Shown here piece after piece: positions 117-5,619 of a stretch of DNA of 5,760 nucleotides. Numbering within the stretch: position 1 is the stretch's first letter; each line of letters opens with the position of its first letter. The notes beneath the pieces are model-generated. The model had not been told where the DNA came from. It ran no database searches and worked only from the letters and a program-made list of their open reading frames with translations. The stretch is from positions 1 to 5,760 of the forward strand of contig JACPHL010000194.1 of NCBI GenBank assembly GCA_016188625.1, read 5' to 3'. The translations under genes were made by a program, and so were the position numbers. The stretch comes from Candidatus Rokuibacteriota bacterium (lineage in GTDB: Bacteria > Methylomirabilota > Methylomirabilia > Rokubacteriales > JACPHL01).

Positions 117-500
117 ATGCCGACGGTGAGGGAGACCTTCGAGGCGATGCCGAGCCGCTTCCGGCCCGAGCGCGCCCAGGGGGTGAGCGCCACGATCCAG
201 TATGAGATCACCGGGGAGGGGGGCGGCCGCTGGTACGCCACCATCGCCGACGGCTCCTGCGCCCTCGCCGAGGGGACGGCGCCGTTCCCGACCCTGACCG
301 TGACCATGGCCGCCCAGGACTGGCTCGACCTGACCCAGGGCAAGCTCGCCGGGCAGGCGGACTTCCTGTCGGGGAAGCTCAAGCTCAAGGGCGACATGAG
401 CCTGGCTCTGAGGCTCCCCGGGCTGTTCCTGTCGGGGAAGCTCAAGCTCAAGGGCGACATGAGCCTGGCCCTGAGGCTCCCCGGGCTGTTCGCGCTCTGA
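117..500 (+). CDS. SCP2 sterol/lipid-binding domain protein with duplicated C-terminal segment
   Basis: A 127-residue protein recognised as a stand-alone SCP2 (sterol carrier protein 2) domain. It has an N-terminal helix-like stretch, a beta strand with GRWYATIADG, an acidic/aromatic middle ending in DWLDLTQGKL, and the family's typical end, an SGKLKLKGDM strand followed by a hydrophobic helix closing in LF. SCP2 domains form a hydrophobic tunnel that binds fatty acids, acyl-CoAs or sterols; no signal peptide or membrane segment is seen, so it should be cytosolic. The domain would normally finish near residue 104. Here the 21-residue ending (residues 83-103) is repeated at 104-124, followed by Phe-Ala-Leu and the stop. 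The gene sits 16 bases before the first CoA-transferase, as first gene of the apparent operon. A role in presenting acyl-CoA or lipid to the downstream enzymes is inferred from position only. Confidence 0.8.
   Translation: MPTVRETFEAMPSRFRPERAQGVSATIQYEITGEGGGRWYATIADGSCALAEGTAPFPTLTVTMAAQDWLDLTQGKLAGQADFLSGKLKLKGDMSLALRLPGLFLSGKLKLKGDMSLALRLPGLFAL
363..488 (+). repeat. 63-bp in-frame tandem duplication inside the SCP2 gene
   Basis: Two head-to-tail 63-base copies, 363-425 and 426-488, differ at a single base: t at 407 and c at 470, a synonymous Ala codon change. The match continues for three bases (ttc) after the second copy. Each copy encodes 21 residues carrying the SGKLKLKGDM strand and the terminal hydrophobic helix. 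The phase is exact, so the reading frame continues to the stop. Confidence 0.95.
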
Positions 501-516
501 GGCGACCGGCGCCCCG

Positions 517-1878
517 ATGCCCGATCCGAGAGACCCCGAGGCGGCTCCGAGCGACTACTTCGACTGGACGGCCCGGCTCCTCGACCTCGGCGCCGTCCCC
601 GCCAAGCCCGAAGCGCTCCGGGGGATCCGCGTCCTCGACCTGTCGGTCATCATCTTCGGCCCCGCGACCGCGGACTTCCTGGGCGAGCTGGGGGCCGAGG
701 TGGTCAAGGTCGAGCTGCCGGGCGGCGGGGACGTGACCCGCATCCTCGGCGGCGCGCGGACCTTCTGGAAGAACACGAGCCCCTTCTTCTTCCCCCAGAA
801 CCACTCCAAGTACCACGTCGGCATCGATATGCACCGCCCCGAGGGGCAGGCCCTGATCCGGAAGCTCGCGGCCCGCTCCGACATCCTGGTGGAGAACTTC
901 AAGGCCGGGACCCTGGAGACCAAGTTCGGGCTCGGCTACCGGCAGCTCGCCGAGGTCAACCCCCGGCTCATCTATGTCGCCAACACCGGCTTCGGCCAGT
1001 GGGGCCCCTTCGCCGAGGGGCGGGCCTCCTACGACGGCCTGGCCCAGGCGGTCTCCGGGCTCACGGCGATCACGGGCTTTCCCGGCGCGCTCCCGACCAA
1101 GATCGGGATCTACATCGGGGACTGGATGGGGGCCTGCTTCGCGGCCCTCGGGGTCCTGGCGGCGCTCCACTACCGCGCCCGGACCGGCCGGGGGCAGTTC
1201 CTCGAGATGGCCCAGTGCGAGGCGCTCATCCGCGCCATGGACTGGACCTGGGTCCACGCCGGGCTCACCGGCAAGGACCGGCCCCAGACCGGGAACCGCG
1301 ACCCCGCCTTCTCGCCCTCGGGGGTCTTCCGCTGCCGCGACGGGTCCGTGGCGATCGTCGCGGCGACCGACCGCGAGTTCCAGGGCCTGGCCGCGGCGAT
1401 GGCAAGGCCCGGGCTCGTGGAGGACCCTCGCTTCGCCACCCCGGAGGCGCGGCACGCGGAGGAGAACGTCCGGGCCCTCGAGGCGCTGATCGCGGCCTGG
1501 TGCCGCGACAGGACGCGCGCCGAGGTCGAGGCCCTGGGTCGGGAGCATGGCTTCGCAGCGGCTAGGGTCATGACCGCCGGGGACCACTTCGAGGACCCCC
1601 ACTTCCGCGCGCGCGGGGCGGTGTGGGAGCTGGAGGACCCCGTCTATGGCCACCTCACCGACTACGGCCCGGCCCCGAAGCTCTCCCGGACGCCGGCCCG
1701 CTACAAGTGGGTCGGGCCGCCGGTCGGGATGCACAACGACTACGTCTTCGCCCGGGTCCTCGGGCTCGCGGCCGAGGAGATCCGCGCCCTCGATGAGGCC
1801 GGGGTCATCGGCAAGTGGGCCGACCGGCTCGGCGCCAAGCCGCCCGATGGCTGGGCCGGGGAGGGGTTCCTCCGGTGA
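517..1878 (+). CDS. class III CoA-transferase (CaiB/BaiF family), catalytic Asp present
   Basis: A 453-residue family III CoA-transferase, an enzyme class that moves CoA between organic acids through an aspartyl-CoA intermediate and normally works as an interlocked dimer in the cytosol. Visible family features in order: ALRGIRVLDLS near residue 33 opening the domain, LGAEVVKVE, QNHSKYHVGIDM (residues 94-105, the CoA-contacting stretch, with His where the common NRNK form has Arg), ADILVENF-like SDILVENF, a YDGLAQAVSG segment, then IGDWMGACFAALGVLAALHYRA. Asp202 in IGDW fits the catalytic aspartate (Asp169 in formyl-CoA transferase) once the roughly 33-residue N-terminal extension is allowed for. 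GNRDPAFSPSG (259-269) matches the active-site loop region. The substrate cannot be read from sequence. The ribosome binding site is weak, so translation may depend on the SCP2 gene ending 16 bases earlier. The stop overlaps the start of the next gene by four bases. Confidence 0.9.
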   Translation: MPDPRDPEAAPSDYFDWTARLLDLGAVPAKPEALRGIRVLDLSVIIFGPATADFLGELGAEVVKVELPGGGDVTRILGGARTFWKNTSPFFFPQNHSKYHVGIDMHRPEGQALIRKLAARSDILVENFKAGTLETKFGLGYRQLAEVNPRLIYVANTGFGQWGPFAEGRASYDGLAQAVSGLTAITGFPGALPTKIGIYIGDWMGACFAALGVLAALHYRARTGRGQFLEMAQCEALIRAMDWTWVHAGLTGKDRPQTGNRDPAFSPSGVFRCRDGSVAIVAATDREFQGLAAAMARPGLVEDPRFATPEARHAEENVRALEALIAAWCRDRTRAEVEALGREHGFAAARVMTAGDHFEDPHFRARGAVWELEDPVYGHLTDYGPAPKLSRTPARYKWVGPPVGMHNDYVFARVLGLAAEEIRALDEAGVIGKWADRLGAKPPDGWAGEGFLR

Positions 1879-3173
1879 AGTGGGCGGAGTGGATCCGGGC
1901 CGCTGAGGATCCCGCCCGGGTCTCCGAGAAGCCCGAGGCGCTCGACGACCTCCTGGTCCTCGATGCGAGCCACGCCAGCTTCGGCGCCTTCCTCTGCGGA
2001 ACCTTCCTCGCCGAGCTGGGCGCCGAGGTCCTGAAGATCGAGCCGCCGTCGGGCGACCCGGCCCGACGCTGGGGGCCCCCGGACGCGGCCCTTGAGGGGG
2101 AGGGGCTCGCCTACCTCGCCGAGGGGCGGAACAAGCACTACATCACCCTGAACCTCGAGCGTGCCGAGGGGCGGGCAATCTTCCGGGGCCTCGCCGAGCG
2201 CGCCGACGTCGTGATCGACTCCTCCCCCGCCGGGCACCTGGATGCCCTCGGGGTCGGCTACCGCCAGCTCCGGGAGGCGAACCGGGGCCTGGTCTGGGCC
2301 GCCTTCGCCCCCGACGGGCAGTTCGGCCCGCGCGCCCGCGAGCGCCGCCCCGACTACGACCTCACCAACCAGGCCCTCTCCGGGATGATGTACGTGACCG
2401 GCGAGCCCGAGGACGAGCGCGGCCCGCGCCCCGAGGCCGTCCCGACCCGGATGGGGAGCTGGATCTCCTGGTACGCCGCCGGCGCCTGGGGCGCCATCGC
2501 CGTCCTCGCGGCCCTCCATCACCGTCGCGCCACGGGGGAGGGGCAGCTCGTGGACCTCTCCGGGGCCGAGGCGCTCATGCGCTTCATGGGGCTCGGGGTC
2601 TTCCGCTACGAGGTCGCCGGCTTCGTGAAGGAGCGGGAGGGGCTTTACGAGTCCGCGGTCTACCCCTACACCTTCGTCCGGGTCAAGGACGGCTGGGGTT
2701 TCATCGCCGGCTACACCGACCCCAACTTCGGGGCGATCTGCCGGATCATGGGGCGGCCCGAGCTGGCGCAGGACCCGCGCTTCGCCACGACCACGGCCCG
2801 GACCACGCCGGAGAACCAGGCACCCCTCCGCGAGGAGATCGAGAGGTGGTCGGTCGACTACACCGCGGACGAGATCCTCGCCAAGGTCCTGGCCGACCCG
2901 GGGCCCGGCGTGGTCGTCTTCGGCCGGGTGAACGCCCCCACCGAGACCCTGCGGGAATCGCACTGGTGGGAGCGGGGGGCGTTCCGGAGGCTCCAGGACC
3001 CGCTCTACGGCGAGCTCCTGCTCCAGGCGCCCGCCTGGCGGATGACCGAGACCCCGCCGAGGGTGAAGTGGCCGTGCCGCCCCCTCGGCTACCACAACGC
3101 CCACGTCTACCAGAAGTACCTCGGCCTCGGGCCGAGCCGGCTCGCCGAGCTCAAGGCCCAGGGGATCATCTGA
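1875..3173 (+). CDS. class III CoA-transferase paralogue, apparently lacking the catalytic Asp
   Basis: A 432-residue CaiB/BaiF-family protein similar to the preceding one over its length: LDDLLVLDAS at the domain start, LGAEVLKIE, GRNKHYITLNL (84-94, with the usual Arg and Lys), ADVVIDS, YDLTNQALSG, then VLAALHHRRATGEGQ. In an ungapped alignment of the region before VLAALH, the catalytic aspartate of the first protein falls on Trp199 (MGSWISWYAAG here, IGIYIGDWMG there). The active-site loop also differs: YESAVYPYTFVRVKDG (258-273) has no GNRDP-like segment. The likely role is the non-catalytic or structural half of a heteromer with the upstream subunit; known two-subunit relatives include benzylsuccinate CoA-transferase BbsEF and succinyl-CoA:malate CoA-transferase SmtAB. 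The GTG at 1875 is chosen because it makes a GTGA overlap with the previous stop and has GGGGAGGGG about eight bases upstream. An in-frame GTG at 1815 would add 20 Arg-rich residues with no family similarity. Confidence 0.87.
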   Translation: MKWAEWIRAAEDPARVSEKPEALDDLLVLDASHASFGAFLCGTFLAELGAEVLKIEPPSGDPARRWGPPDAALEGEGLAYLAEGRNKHYITLNLERAEGRAIFRGLAERADVVIDSSPAGHLDALGVGYRQLREANRGLVWAAFAPDGQFGPRARERRPDYDLTNQALSGMMYVTGEPEDERGPRPEAVPTRMGSWISWYAAGAWGAIAVLAALHHRRATGEGQLVDLSGAEALMRFMGLGVFRYEVAGFVKEREGLYESAVYPYTFVRVKDGWGFIAGYTDPNFGAICRIMGRPELAQDPRFATTTARTTPENQAPLREEIERWSVDYTADEILAKVLADPGPGVVVFGRVNAPTETLRESHWWERGAFRRLQDPLYGELLLQAPAWRMTETPPRVKWPCRPLGYHNAHVYQKYLGLGPSRLAELKAQGII

Positions 3174-3189: not shown

Positions 3190-4266
3190 ATGCCGGACAC
3201 TGCTCGCGAGACCGACGCCTTCCGACACCTCCAGGAGGAGTGGACGCGACAGATCCTGCGGGGGACCCGGGCCATGGAGCTGATCCTGAACCCCGCCGAG
3301 CCGAAGGTCGGCCAGACGCCCCGGGTCGAGGTCTACCGGAAGGGGAAGGCGCGGCTCTGCCGGTACCAGTCCTCGCGGAAGCACCCTGTCCCGGTCCTCA
3401 TGGTCCCCAACCTGGGGATCAGCCGCCCGTACATCTTCGACCTCCAGCCCGGGGCGAGCTTCATCGAGTACATGACCCGGGAGGGGTTCGACTTCTACCT
3501 CCTGGACTGGGGGGTCTTCGGCGAGGAGGACAACGGGCTGACGGTGGACGACTGCGTGACCCGCATCCTCCCCCGCGTGGTCCGGAAGGTCCTGGAGAGC
3601 TCAGGGGCCGAGGCGCTCTCCCTCCTCGGCTACTGCATGGGAGGCCCGCTCTCGGCGTGCTTCGTCGCCCTCCACCCCGAGGTCCCGGTCCGGGCCCTCG
3701 TCAACATGGCCGGCCCCATCGACTTCGCCCACGCGGGGCTCTTCCGGCTCTGGCTCGACAAGCGCTTCTTCAACGTGGACCGGATGGTGGACACCCTCGG
3801 CGCCGTCCCCGCCGAGATGGTCAAGGCCGGCTTCAAGCTCCTCAAGCCGACCATGGACGTCACGACCGCGCTCAACCTCTGGTGGAACCTCTGGAACGAC
3901 CGTTACGTCGAGGGCTTCAAGGCCCTCAACAAGTGGGCCAACGAGTACGTTCCCTTCCCCGGCGAGTTCTTCCGCCAGTGGGTGAAGGAGTTCTACCAGG
4001 AGAACCGCCTGGTCCGGAAGGAGCTCCGCCTGGGCGGACGGCTCGTGGACCTCGGCCAGATCCGCTGCCCTGTCCTCGTCGTGGGGGCCCAGGAGGACTA
4101 CATCGCCCCCGCCCCCTGCGTTCGGGCCGTCCTGGACCACGTCGGGTCCCAGGACACGCGCTACGAGGAGCTTCCCGGCGGGCACATCTCGCTGATCGCC
4201 GGGCGCTCGGCCGCGCTCCACTGCTGGCCCCGGGTCGCGGGCTGGCTCGCCCCACGCTCGGGCTAA
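3190..4266 (+). CDS. phaC: class III-type poly(3-hydroxyalkanoate) synthase, catalytic subunit
   Basis: A 358-residue alpha/beta-hydrolase-fold PHA synthase, close to the roughly 355 residues usual for class III PhaC and much shorter than class I/II enzymes. It polymerises (R)-3-hydroxyacyl-CoA into polyester on the surface of storage granules, releasing CoA. Landmarks: VPNLGISRPYIFDLQPG, the core of the PHA synthase signature (families often read NRPYI, here SRPYI); FDFYLLDWG with Asp106-Trp107-Gly108; the lipase-like box GYCMGG with nucleophile Cys149; Asp303 in VGAQEDYIAP; and His332 in GGHISLIAG. These match the Cys149-Asp302-His331 triad of the Allochromatium vinosum enzyme within one residue, so the triad is intact. 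Class III PhaC needs a PhaE partner, and a PhaE-like gene follows after a hairpin-bearing gap. It starts 16 bases after the CoA-transferase pair, probably on the same transcript. Confidence 0.95.
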   Translation: MPDTARETDAFRHLQEEWTRQILRGTRAMELILNPAEPKVGQTPRVEVYRKGKARLCRYQSSRKHPVPVLMVPNLGISRPYIFDLQPGASFIEYMTREGFDFYLLDWGVFGEEDNGLTVDDCVTRILPRVVRKVLESSGAEALSLLGYCMGGPLSACFVALHPEVPVRALVNMAGPIDFAHAGLFRLWLDKRFFNVDRMVDTLGAVPAEMVKAGFKLLKPTMDVTTALNLWWNLWNDRYVEGFKALNKWANEYVPFPGEFFRQWVKEFYQENRLVRKELRLGGRLVDLGQIRCPVLVVGAQEDYIAPAPCVRAVLDHVGSQDTRYEELPGGHISLIAGRSAALHCWPRVAGWLAPRSG

Positions 4267-4269
4267 CCC

Positions 4270-4300
4270 ATTCGGAGGGGGGCACAGCCCCCCTCCGAAT
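4270..4300. terminator. strong hairpin directly after phaC (terminator-like, no T-tract)
   Basis: A perfect 13-bp stem pairs 4270-4282 with 4288-4300 around the loop CACAG; the loop could close by one further C-G pair. It starts four bases after the phaC stop. No run of T follows on either strand, so it is not a classical intrinsic terminator. It could attenuate transcription, protect the 3' end of the upstream message, or belong to a dispersed intergenic repeat. A G-run/C-run hairpin of similar make-up follows the last gene at 5544-5561. Confidence 0.55.
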
Positions 4301-4302
4301 TA

Positions 4303-4331
4303 GAGCGAGGGGTCGGCGCCTCCCGGGGGGC
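4303..4331 (+). repeat. left arm of a 29-bp perfect inverted repeat
   Basis: Bases 4303-4331, beginning GAGCGAGGGGTCGG and ending in CCCGGGGGGC, are the exact reverse complement of 5591-5619. The match stops at both edges. The arm starts two bases after the phaC hairpin, contains the palindrome GGCGCC (4315-4320), and overlaps the left side of the hairpin at 4318-4339. Confidence 0.9.
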
Positions 4332-4339
4332 CGGGAGGC
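4318..4339. other. second intergenic hairpin between phaC and phaE
   Basis: A 9-bp stem pairs 4318-4326 with 4331-4339 around a GGGG loop. It follows the phaC hairpin and uses part of the left inverted-repeat arm, so this arm could either fold locally or pair with 5591-5619, but not both at once. The role is unknown; it may influence how much message reads through into the PhaE-like gene. Confidence 0.5.
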
Positions 4340-4380
4340 CGTCGCGGCAGAAAGAATCGTCGGGACGCCCGGGGGTGGTG

Positions 4381-4389
4381 TGGCATAAT
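4381..4389 (+). promoter_or_regulatory. possible extended -10 promoter ahead of the PhaE-like gene
   Basis: TGGCATAAT fits the extended -10 form (TGn followed by a hexamer with 5 of 6 matches to TATAAT). Upstream only a poor -35 is seen (GGGACG at 4362-4367, 16-base spacer). If active, transcription would start near 4396. The message would then begin after the ATG at 4388 and translation would have to use the ATG at 4406. It would let phaE-phaJ be expressed apart from phaC across the hairpin gap. Weak evidence. Confidence 0.3.
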
Positions 4390-4960
4390 GGCCGCGAGGT
4401 CGCGCATGGCGGAGAAGGAGCCGACCCAGGAGATGTTTGAACTCTGGCGGAAGTCCCTCGAGGAGGGGACTCAGGCCTGGCTCAAGACGATCACCCAGAC
4501 CCCGCCCGCGGACGTCACCCAGTTCTGGCGGCCGATCCTCGAGCAGGGGATGGAGTTCTGGGCGAAGGGCATGGGCCAGGTGGGCGCCCCCGATCCCGCG
4601 CAGCAGTGGAAGCGCTTCATGGACCTCTGGCTCGAGGCCTGGTCGAAGGCGCTCGGCCAGGCGATGGCCACCGAGGGGTTCGCCCGGGCCCTCGGGCGGT
4701 ACATGGACCAGTGGCTCACGGCGCAGGGGCCGTGGCGGAAGGCGGCCGAGCAGTCGAGCGAGGCCGCCCTCAAGGCCCTGGGGCTCCCAGGCCGGGCCCA
4801 GGTGGCGGCGATGGCCGAGCAGCTCACGGCGCTGGAGGAGCGGGTGGACCGGCTGGATGACCGGCTGGACGAGCTGAAGCAGCTCCTCGAACGACTCGCC
4901 CGCTCCCCAGCGGATCGCGCCGCGGTGCCGCGACGGACCACGAGCCGGAAGCGGTCGTGA
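4388..4960 (+). CDS. phaE: PhaE-like / phasin-family PHA synthase partner
   Basis: A 190-residue, Trp-rich, helix-forming protein best matched to the PhaE subunit of class III PHA synthases or to a phasin. PhaE activates PhaC and phasins coat the granule; both act at the polymer surface. Three 27-residue repeats (17-43, 44-70, 71-97) carry Trp pairs W20/W31, W47/W58 and W74/W85. Then comes an amphipathic region, then GLPGRAQV (132-139), resembling the PhaE C-terminal motif around (L/I)P(T/S)R. It leads into a coiled coil with hydrophobic positions 146, 149, 153, 156, 160, 163, 167 and 170, and a basic Arg/Lys tail (about 179-190). The protein is much shorter than A. vinosum PhaE (about 357 residues), but short PhaE proteins are known, for example in haloarchaea. 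The start is uncertain: ATG 4388 follows a GGGGGTGGTG stretch, whereas ATG 4406 (184 residues) has GAGGT at 4396-4400 at ideal spacing. The phaE symbol rests on the C-terminal motif and the phaC neighbour; phasin is the alternative. Confidence 0.75.
   Translation: MAARSRMAEKEPTQEMFELWRKSLEEGTQAWLKTITQTPPADVTQFWRPILEQGMEFWAKGMGQVGAPDPAQQWKRFMDLWLEAWSKALGQAMATEGFARALGRYMDQWLTAQGPWRKAAEQSSEAALKALGLPGRAQVAAMAEQLTALEERVDRLDDRLDELKQLLERLARSPADRAAVPRRTTSRKRS
4396..4400 (+). promoter_or_regulatory. candidate ribosome binding site for an alternative phaE start
   Basis: GAGGT lies five bases before an in-frame ATG at 4406 (residue 7 of the longer reading). This is at least as good as the diffuse GGGGGTGGTG region ahead of 4388 and leaves the true start open. 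The six residues in dispute (MAARSR) are basic and carry no recognisable motif. Confidence 0.4.
4436..4678 (+). repeat. three 81-bp (27-residue) degenerate repeats in the PhaE-like gene
   Basis: Residues 17-43, 44-70 and 71-97 align without gaps. Shared by all three are Trp at unit position 4, Arg/Lys at 5, Leu/Met at 8, Glu/Asp at 9, Trp at 15, Lys at 17 and Gln at 21. Units 1 and 2 share the pattern WRxxLE(E/Q)GxxxWxK and are also similar as DNA (both have TCTGGCGG, later CTCGAG, then AGGGGA). The third unit is more diverged, and no fourth unit keeps the spacing. Confidence 0.7.
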
Positions 4961-5538
4961 TCGGTCGGCCCATCGAGGAGCTGGCGGTCGGGGACTCGGC
5001 GGAGATCTCCCGGGTCGTGAGCCGGGAGACGGTGCGGGGGTTCGTGGAGGCGACCGGGGATGCCAACCCGCTCCACGCCGATCCCGCCTTCGCGGCCGAG
5101 ACCCGCTTCGGGGAGGTCATCGCCCCCGGCCTCCTCACCGGGGGCCTCGTCTCGGCGGTGATCGGGACCCGGCTCCCGGGACCCGGAACCGTCTACCTCT
5201 CCCAGGAGCTCCGCTTCCGCCGCCCGGTCCGGCTCGGCGAGGCGATCACGGCCCGCGTGGAGGTGATCGAGGTCCAGCCCGAACGGGGCCGGGTCCGCCT
5301 CCGTACCGTCTGCCTGAACGGCAGGGGGGAGGTCGTCCTGGAGGGGGAGGCCTGGGTGCTTCCGCCGACCCGTCCGCTCCGCTACGAGCGCCCCGCGACG
5401 ACCGCCGGCGCCTGGAGTCGGCTGGCGGTCGCCCCCTGGCGGTGGGGCTTCGCCGCCGCCCTCGGGATGATCGCCGACCCGGCCTTCGCGCCCCGCCCGG
5501 TCCCTTCTGGCCTGCGGTTGCTAGATTCTTCCGAGTAA
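4957..5538 (+). CDS. phaJ: MaoC-like (R)-specific enoyl-CoA hydratase with C-terminal extension
   Basis: A 193-residue protein whose first about 135 residues form a single hot-dog MaoC/hydratase 2 domain. It should hydrate trans-2-enoyl-CoA to (R)-3-hydroxyacyl-CoA, linking fatty acid oxidation to PHA synthesis. The hydratase motif is clear: ATGDANPLHAD with Asp35 and His40, the pair equivalent to Asp31/His36 of Aeromonas caviae PhaJ, followed by TRFGEVIAPGLL, IGTRLPGPGTVYLSQELRFRRPV and GEAITARVEV. The usual His-Gly before the central helix is replaced by Pro-Gly, as seen in other MaoC proteins. Residues 136-193 extend beyond the normal end (PhaJ is about 134 residues), with Trp153, Trp161, Trp163 and a hydrophobic GFAAALGMIADPAF stretch. 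The GTG start forms a GTGA overlap with the previous stop, so the two are likely translationally coupled. The phaJ name rests on fold, catalytic motif and the neighbouring phaC and phaE. Confidence 0.85.
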   Translation: MIGRPIEELAVGDSAEISRVVSRETVRGFVEATGDANPLHADPAFAAETRFGEVIAPGLLTGGLVSAVIGTRLPGPGTVYLSQELRFRRPVRLGEAITARVEVIEVQPERGRVRLRTVCLNGRGEVVLEGEAWVLPPTRPLRYERPATTAGAWSRLAVAPWRWGFAAALGMIADPAFAPRPVPSGLRLLDSSE

Positions 5539-5592: not shown

Positions 5593-5619
5593 CCCCCGGG
5601 AGGCGCCGACCCCTCGCTC
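5591..5619 (-). repeat. right arm of the 29-bp perfect inverted repeat
   Basis: Exact reverse complement of 4303-4331. It lies 53 bases past the stop of the hydratase gene, so the two arms enclose the phaE-like and phaJ-like genes (1,259 bases between the arms). No target-site duplication is visible outside the arms and no transposase lies between them. Confidence 0.9.

Follow-up and report, generated by a model that had tools for sequence, protein, structure and literature searches.

A tandem pair of family III CoA-transferase subunits, one with and one without the catalytic aspartate, in a PHA gene neighbourhood of Candidatus Rokuibacteriota

Two overlapping genes of a Candidatus Rokuibacteriota bacterium encode family III CoA-transferase proteins, A and B, of which only A carries the catalytic aspartate. 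Taken as a whole, the data are best explained by an obligate heteromer of interlocked A and B chains, either AB or a dimer of AB, that has one live active site, and we regard this as the probable state of the enzyme. We infer hetero- rather than homo-assembly of A and B, and likewise the substrate and the direction of the reaction, from the comparisons described below.

Results and Discussion

The analysed stretch of DNA (the window, 5,760 nucleotides) is the whole of contig C333 of an incomplete assembly (2.6 Mb in 344 contigs, 84% complete). All six genes, SCP2, A, B, PhaC, PhaE-like and MaoC-type hydratase, are located on the + strand:

117..500, +, SCP2-domain protein directly upstream of A (PF02036, 79 bits; cluster c6, linked to the pair in relatives)
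517..1878, +, subunit A, family III CoA-transferase, 453 aa, Asp202 codon at 1120-1122 (PF02515, 374 bits)
1875..3173, +, subunit B, family III CoA-transferase fold, 432 aa, GTG start, Trp199 codon at 2469-2471 (PF02515, 310 bits)
1875..1878, +, four-base GTGA overlap formed by the A stop and the B GTG start
3190..4266, +, class III-like PHA synthase PhaC with the nucleophile motif GYCMGG (TIGR01836, 292 bits, under the model cut-off of 365)
4388..4960, +, PhaE-like PHA synthase partner (PF09712, 29.5 bits, cut-off 25.7)
4957..5538, +, MaoC-type (R)-enoyl-CoA hydratase (PF01575, 70 bits)

Both A and B match PF02515 over the full profile (374 and 310 bits against a curated cut-off of 23.3), and the initial annotation was right in describing two family III (CaiB/Frc) genes with a four-base overlap, which is GTGA. 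A spacing of -4 or -1 between A and B recurs in most relatives, and such an overlap is typical of coupled subunits. When scored against the single-function NCBIfam families for Frc, CoA:oxalate, succinate-glutarate, mesaconate, carnitine and Mct, neither protein passed any of these named models (best 228 of 750 bits for A and 186 of 700 bits for B). Alpha-methylacyl-CoA racemase pairs a catalytic His with the Asp, and in the region that we take to be the place of this His, A has Tyr172.

Two further features of the window concern its other genes. The SCP2 gene contains a 63-base tandem duplication (363-488, two copies 98% identical) that adds 21 residues to the C-terminus, the protein having 127 residues compared to mostly about 97-107 in relatives. 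A 21-base intergenic repeat occurs at 4303-4323 (+) and 5599-5619 (-) and is found nine times in exact form in the genome, the reversed control giving no copy; beside it, between PhaC and PhaE, two very strong hairpins are located at 4262-4345 (z -4.7), and this region resembles either a REP-type dispersed element or a structure that attenuates transcription.

The catalytic position

At the conserved position of the family III aspartate, A has Asp202 and B has Trp199. The two proteins align without a gap here, PTKIGIYIGDWMGACFAALGVLAALH in A and PTRMGSWISWYAAGAWGAIAVLAALH in B, with D202 opposite W199 exactly as the initial annotation had read it. Relatives were gathered by genome search, those retrieved as loci were aligned, and distant rows were aligned automatically. 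Relatives of the pair that carry a name in public genomes belong to Candidatus Rokubacteria/Methylomirabilota, and the 27 aligned A-B pairs come from Rokubacteria, Desulfobacterota and one Archaeoglobales MAG. The aspartate is present in 100% of their A proteins and 0% of their B proteins, and in 100% of 65 single-gene relatives, a pattern far beyond chance. In B the position is taken by Trp (48%), Ala (37%) or, in the remainder, Ser, His, Tyr or Gly. Trp, the commonest, is also found in other subfamilies and in Desulfobacterota, and Ala occurs in most close relatives of the window; the constant feature of B is thus the loss of Asp and not what replaces it. An assembly or sequencing error at W199 was considered and rejected, the same Trp being present in two other subfamilies and in Desulfobacterota pairs.

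Between residues 188 and 221 B contains neither Asp nor Glu, which leaves no alternative acid that a shift of the alignment could bring to the catalytic place. Another Asp of B at this position, which had been named beforehand as evidence against a dead subunit, was also sought, and none lies within ten residues. Single-chain models of the two proteins (pLDDT 68 and 63) show the fold and a helix beginning near D202/W199, and no interface; such middling confidence is what one would expect when alignments are shallow and the dimer is interlocked.

Joint inheritance of A and B

Throughout the phylum B lies directly downstream of A for 40 of 48 A genes. For the other eight a contig end is reached at or near the gene, and in three of these B has begun where the contig breaks off; among all 48 no A without B was found away from contig ends. 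Seen from the other side, A is upstream of 40 of 45 B genes, the rest being at or near contig ends except for one truncated copy (G073). A mirror-tree comparison of the A and B distance matrices gave r 0.961 for 26 pairs; the highest of 5000 permutations was 0.518. Shared species history contributes to this figure, which therefore speaks for joint inheritance and equal rates and not for contact. With a slope of 0.99, B changes at the same rate as A and is not in decay.

Mean column identity is 64% in B vs 68% in A, so that B is almost equally conserved and hence under selection, which would also suit a B that is active through another residue or in other CoA chemistry, the pair then being two independent enzymes encoded in tandem. 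We consider this very unlikely, as B offers no acid within ten residues of the catalytic position, lacks the CoA-contacting Asn in 27 of 27 sequences, and occurs without A only in the contig-end cases and the truncated copy mentioned above.

Pocket, loop and CoA-contact residues

Of 37 positions conserved in at least 90% of the single-gene relatives, B has lost four, namely Pro49, Asn127, Gly158 and Asp202 (A numbering), all of which we place in the CoA/Asp pocket, and A has lost only Pro67 and Arg96. B keeps most other canonical residues, including G259 (93%) and P267 (89%) of the loop, and in A the Asp, Asn127 and the GNxD loop are intact in all 27 sequences. In Mct, Asn100 contacts the pantetheine part of CoA (PMC9196870, PMC9813914), and we equate Asn127, the Asn of the E-N-F motif, with this residue by motif and not by residue alignment. 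Judged from the sequences, the division between the subunits is uneven: A is nearly complete, and B appears as a wrecked pocket within an otherwise sound fold. Of the obligate heteromer that the initial annotation proposed, one catalytic and one dead subunit therefore stand and a heteromer is very probable, but the reciprocal loss does not, since A keeps almost everything.

The Arg of the N-R-x-K stretch is indeed kept only in B (R85; H96 in A), as had been noticed earlier. Arg is found here in 100% of B and 95% of single genes, and A has His (70%) or Lys (22%). As E. coli YfdW has Ser and BbsF has Ala at the same position, Arg is not needed there for activity. The active-site loop had been described as kept only in A. 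This is correct for GNRDPAFSPSG in A, but the loop of B is not simply lost and has its own conserved version, R-G-x-[YLF]...F-P-Y with the Tyr in 27 of 27. Where YfdE has a His proposed to face the carboxylate substrate, B mostly has Glu or Asp, a mild argument against a dicarboxylate acceptor.

A model for the A-B heteromer

An interlocked dimer with active sites built in trans is known for YfdE and Mct (PMC3720670, PMC9196870), and each active site of YfdE combines the catalytic Asp of one subunit with the GNxH loop of the other (PMC3720670). By analogy, the loop over Asp202 in an A-B dimer would be that of B, and the invariant GNRD loop of A would cover the dead pocket of B. The original assignment of Asp202 and the A loop to one and the same site is not supported, the YfdE geometry leading to the opposite grouping (PMC3720670).

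In the resulting model, for which the trans-assembled active sites and the Asp chemistry are taken from the literature, the live site would be formed by the Rossmann domain of A, with Asp202, Asn127 and Lys98, and the small-domain loop of B would close over it. Asp202 would attack the acyl-CoA donor, an aspartyl anhydride and then an aspartyl-CoA thioester would be the intermediates, and CoA would be handed to the acceptor acid. The mirror site, made from the Rossmann pocket of B (Trp199, no Asn, no Gly-Pro) and the GNRD loop of A, should be incapable of this chemistry and might serve in structure or regulation. Covering of Asp202 by the B loop would also explain why decay in B has affected the Rossmann pocket and spared the small-domain loop.

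The invariance of the A loop over a dead pocket leaves room for an A2 homodimer or for a regulatory role of this pocket. With its full set of canonical motifs (Asp, Asn and GNxD loop, in 27 of 27 sequences everything a homodimeric family III enzyme needs), A2 could be active without B. A would then be an active homodimer alone, and B would be a pseudoenzyme apart from it with a regulatory or chaperone-like function, acting for instance as an acyl-CoA sensor or as a competitor that lowers activity by forming AB; the presence of the PHA operon without the pair in other genomes (see below) points in the same direction. Against this stand the consistent absence of A without B away from contig ends, the equal rates of the two trees (r 0.96) and the solved analogue BbsEF, where both kinds of chain are present in one crystal structure. 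We therefore regard an independent A homodimer as unlikely and prefer the heteromer with one live site.

PHA operon context

In the subfamily of the window PhaC follows B in 18 genomes, that of the window among them, and the larger neighbourhood has the order FadR-type regulator, enoyl-CoA hydratase, SDR, SCP2, A, B, PhaC, PhaE, MaoC, PhaB-like reductase, PhaR-type PHA regulator, phasin-like protein (named by position only, with no family match) and acyl-CoA ligase. In six relatives (G005, G007, G057, G043, G010 and G004) the same operon lacks A-B, PhaC coming immediately after SCP2, so that the pair is an accessory that PHA synthesis can do without. G015 encodes, between its SCP2 and PhaC genes, a 362-residue protein with no Pfam match where A-B would otherwise lie (L144, 6431-7519).

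For the heteromer in the lineage of the window, the acceptor would most likely be a short (hydroxy)carboxylic acid, and the resulting CoA ester could feed PhaC directly or via the ECH, SDR and MaoC enzymes of the operon; activation of such an acid for PhaC or for the hydratase/reductase steps would fit the context. Some pairs of subfamily iii as well as Smithellaceae/Delta pairs adjoin genes for branched-chain-type ABC transporters or for the binding proteins of these, a setting compatible with activation of an imported acid. As subfamilies ii and iii occur in other surroundings, a role in PHA monomer supply is not general.

It is also conceivable, although we would not expect it, that the dead pocket (B Rossmann domain and invariant GNxD loop of A) has been retained for regulation or acyl-CoA sensing and in this way sets the monomer supply to the adjacent PHA synthase, the pair being a second, independent family III heteromer with one live site and an optional module of the PHA operon. 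The gene context points to an uncharacterised CoA-ester feed to PHA synthase in uncultured Rokubacteria, and the otherwise matching PHA operons with and without A-B offer a natural comparison.

Evolutionary origin and comparison with known systems

To look into the origin of the pair we reconstructed a tree of 105 rows (quick search, SH-aLRT only, rooted for drawing only), in which the program flagged long branches, BbsE among them. The A/B group forms one starred clade (100). Within it, 26 B proteins form one starred clade beside the B-like members of tandem pairs in which both proteins have Asp (L053, L058 and L104), and A groups with the A-like members of these pairs. Like A-B, such Asp/Asp pairs consist of two adjacent genes, one grouping with A and one with B; they differ in that both members keep the Asp and the B-like gene comes first. 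From this placement a two-Asp tandem pair is the likely forerunner of A-B, that is, the state before B lost its Asp, with the direction of change presumed, as the root serves for drawing only. One such sister pair, L058, is found in the genome of the window itself (G000:C323, 3-2362) beside a phosphoglycerate-mutase-like gene.

BbsE-like and BbsF-like proteins each cluster in starred clades of their own. A single origin of all dead subunits was rejected by the AU test (p-AU 8e-9, a cost of 132 log-likelihood units; the constraint group was chosen with the tree already in view). The dead state requires three changes on the tree, and the starred branches force at least two. On this tree the A-B pairs are a lineage of their own, and their loss of the Asp is independent of that in BbsE. 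This indicates that family III CoA-transferases have lost one of their two active sites more than once, and relatives at the Asp/Asp stage, one of them in the same genome, allow the question of what is gained from giving up half of the sites to be addressed by experiment.

More BbsEF-like pairs were seen in Chloroflexota MAGs (L111, L115 and L140), one member having Leu, Tyr or His instead of Asp. In addition, G039 encodes a BbsE-like protein (L044, 1-1032) whose catalytic position is taken by Tyr, about 9 kb from its PHA-operon A-B pair; the partner lies beyond the part of G039 that was covered.

YfdE, YfdW and Frc share the fold with the pair, and A has their catalytic Asp, a GNRD (GNxH-like) loop and the CoA Asn and Lys; they are homodimers with two live sites, whereas in A-B one chain lacks the Asp. 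SmtAB is a two-subunit family III enzyme. SptAB has been named as another (PMC11659651).

The closest match in layout is BbsEF, for which our statements rest on PDB titles and sequences (entries 9FN0, 9FOL and 9FUN); the references for BbsE, BbsF and a Brucella enzyme were read off HMMER alignments, a few terminal residues missing. BbsF Asp178 aligns with Asp202 of A and BbsE Tyr171 with Trp199 of B, and a D178-CoA adduct is mentioned in the 9FOL title, so that BbsEF also combines one family III subunit with the Asp and one without. The initial annotation had rightly cited BbsEF as a two-subunit precedent but missed that it is itself a one-Asp pair. Chains of the BbsE type have also lost the equivalent of Gly158 and mostly that of Asn127. 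This shared layout would favour A-B being BbsEF-like by kinship or function. Yet BbsE-like and BbsF-like rows stand in their own clades apart from A and B, the single dead-subunit clade is rejected, and PHA genes surround the pair, so that we regard such a relation as highly improbable and kinship as disfavoured, in line with the initial annotation, which did not recognise the pair as BbsEF; orthology with BbsEF is not supported. The two systems share about 25-29% identity and lost the Asp separately; B has Trp or Ala and retains loop residues that are mostly lost in BbsE-like chains, and the context is toluene for BbsEF and PHA for A-B. The layout of one catalytic and one dead subunit is thus already known from BbsEF, and A-B is a new, separately evolved variant of it.
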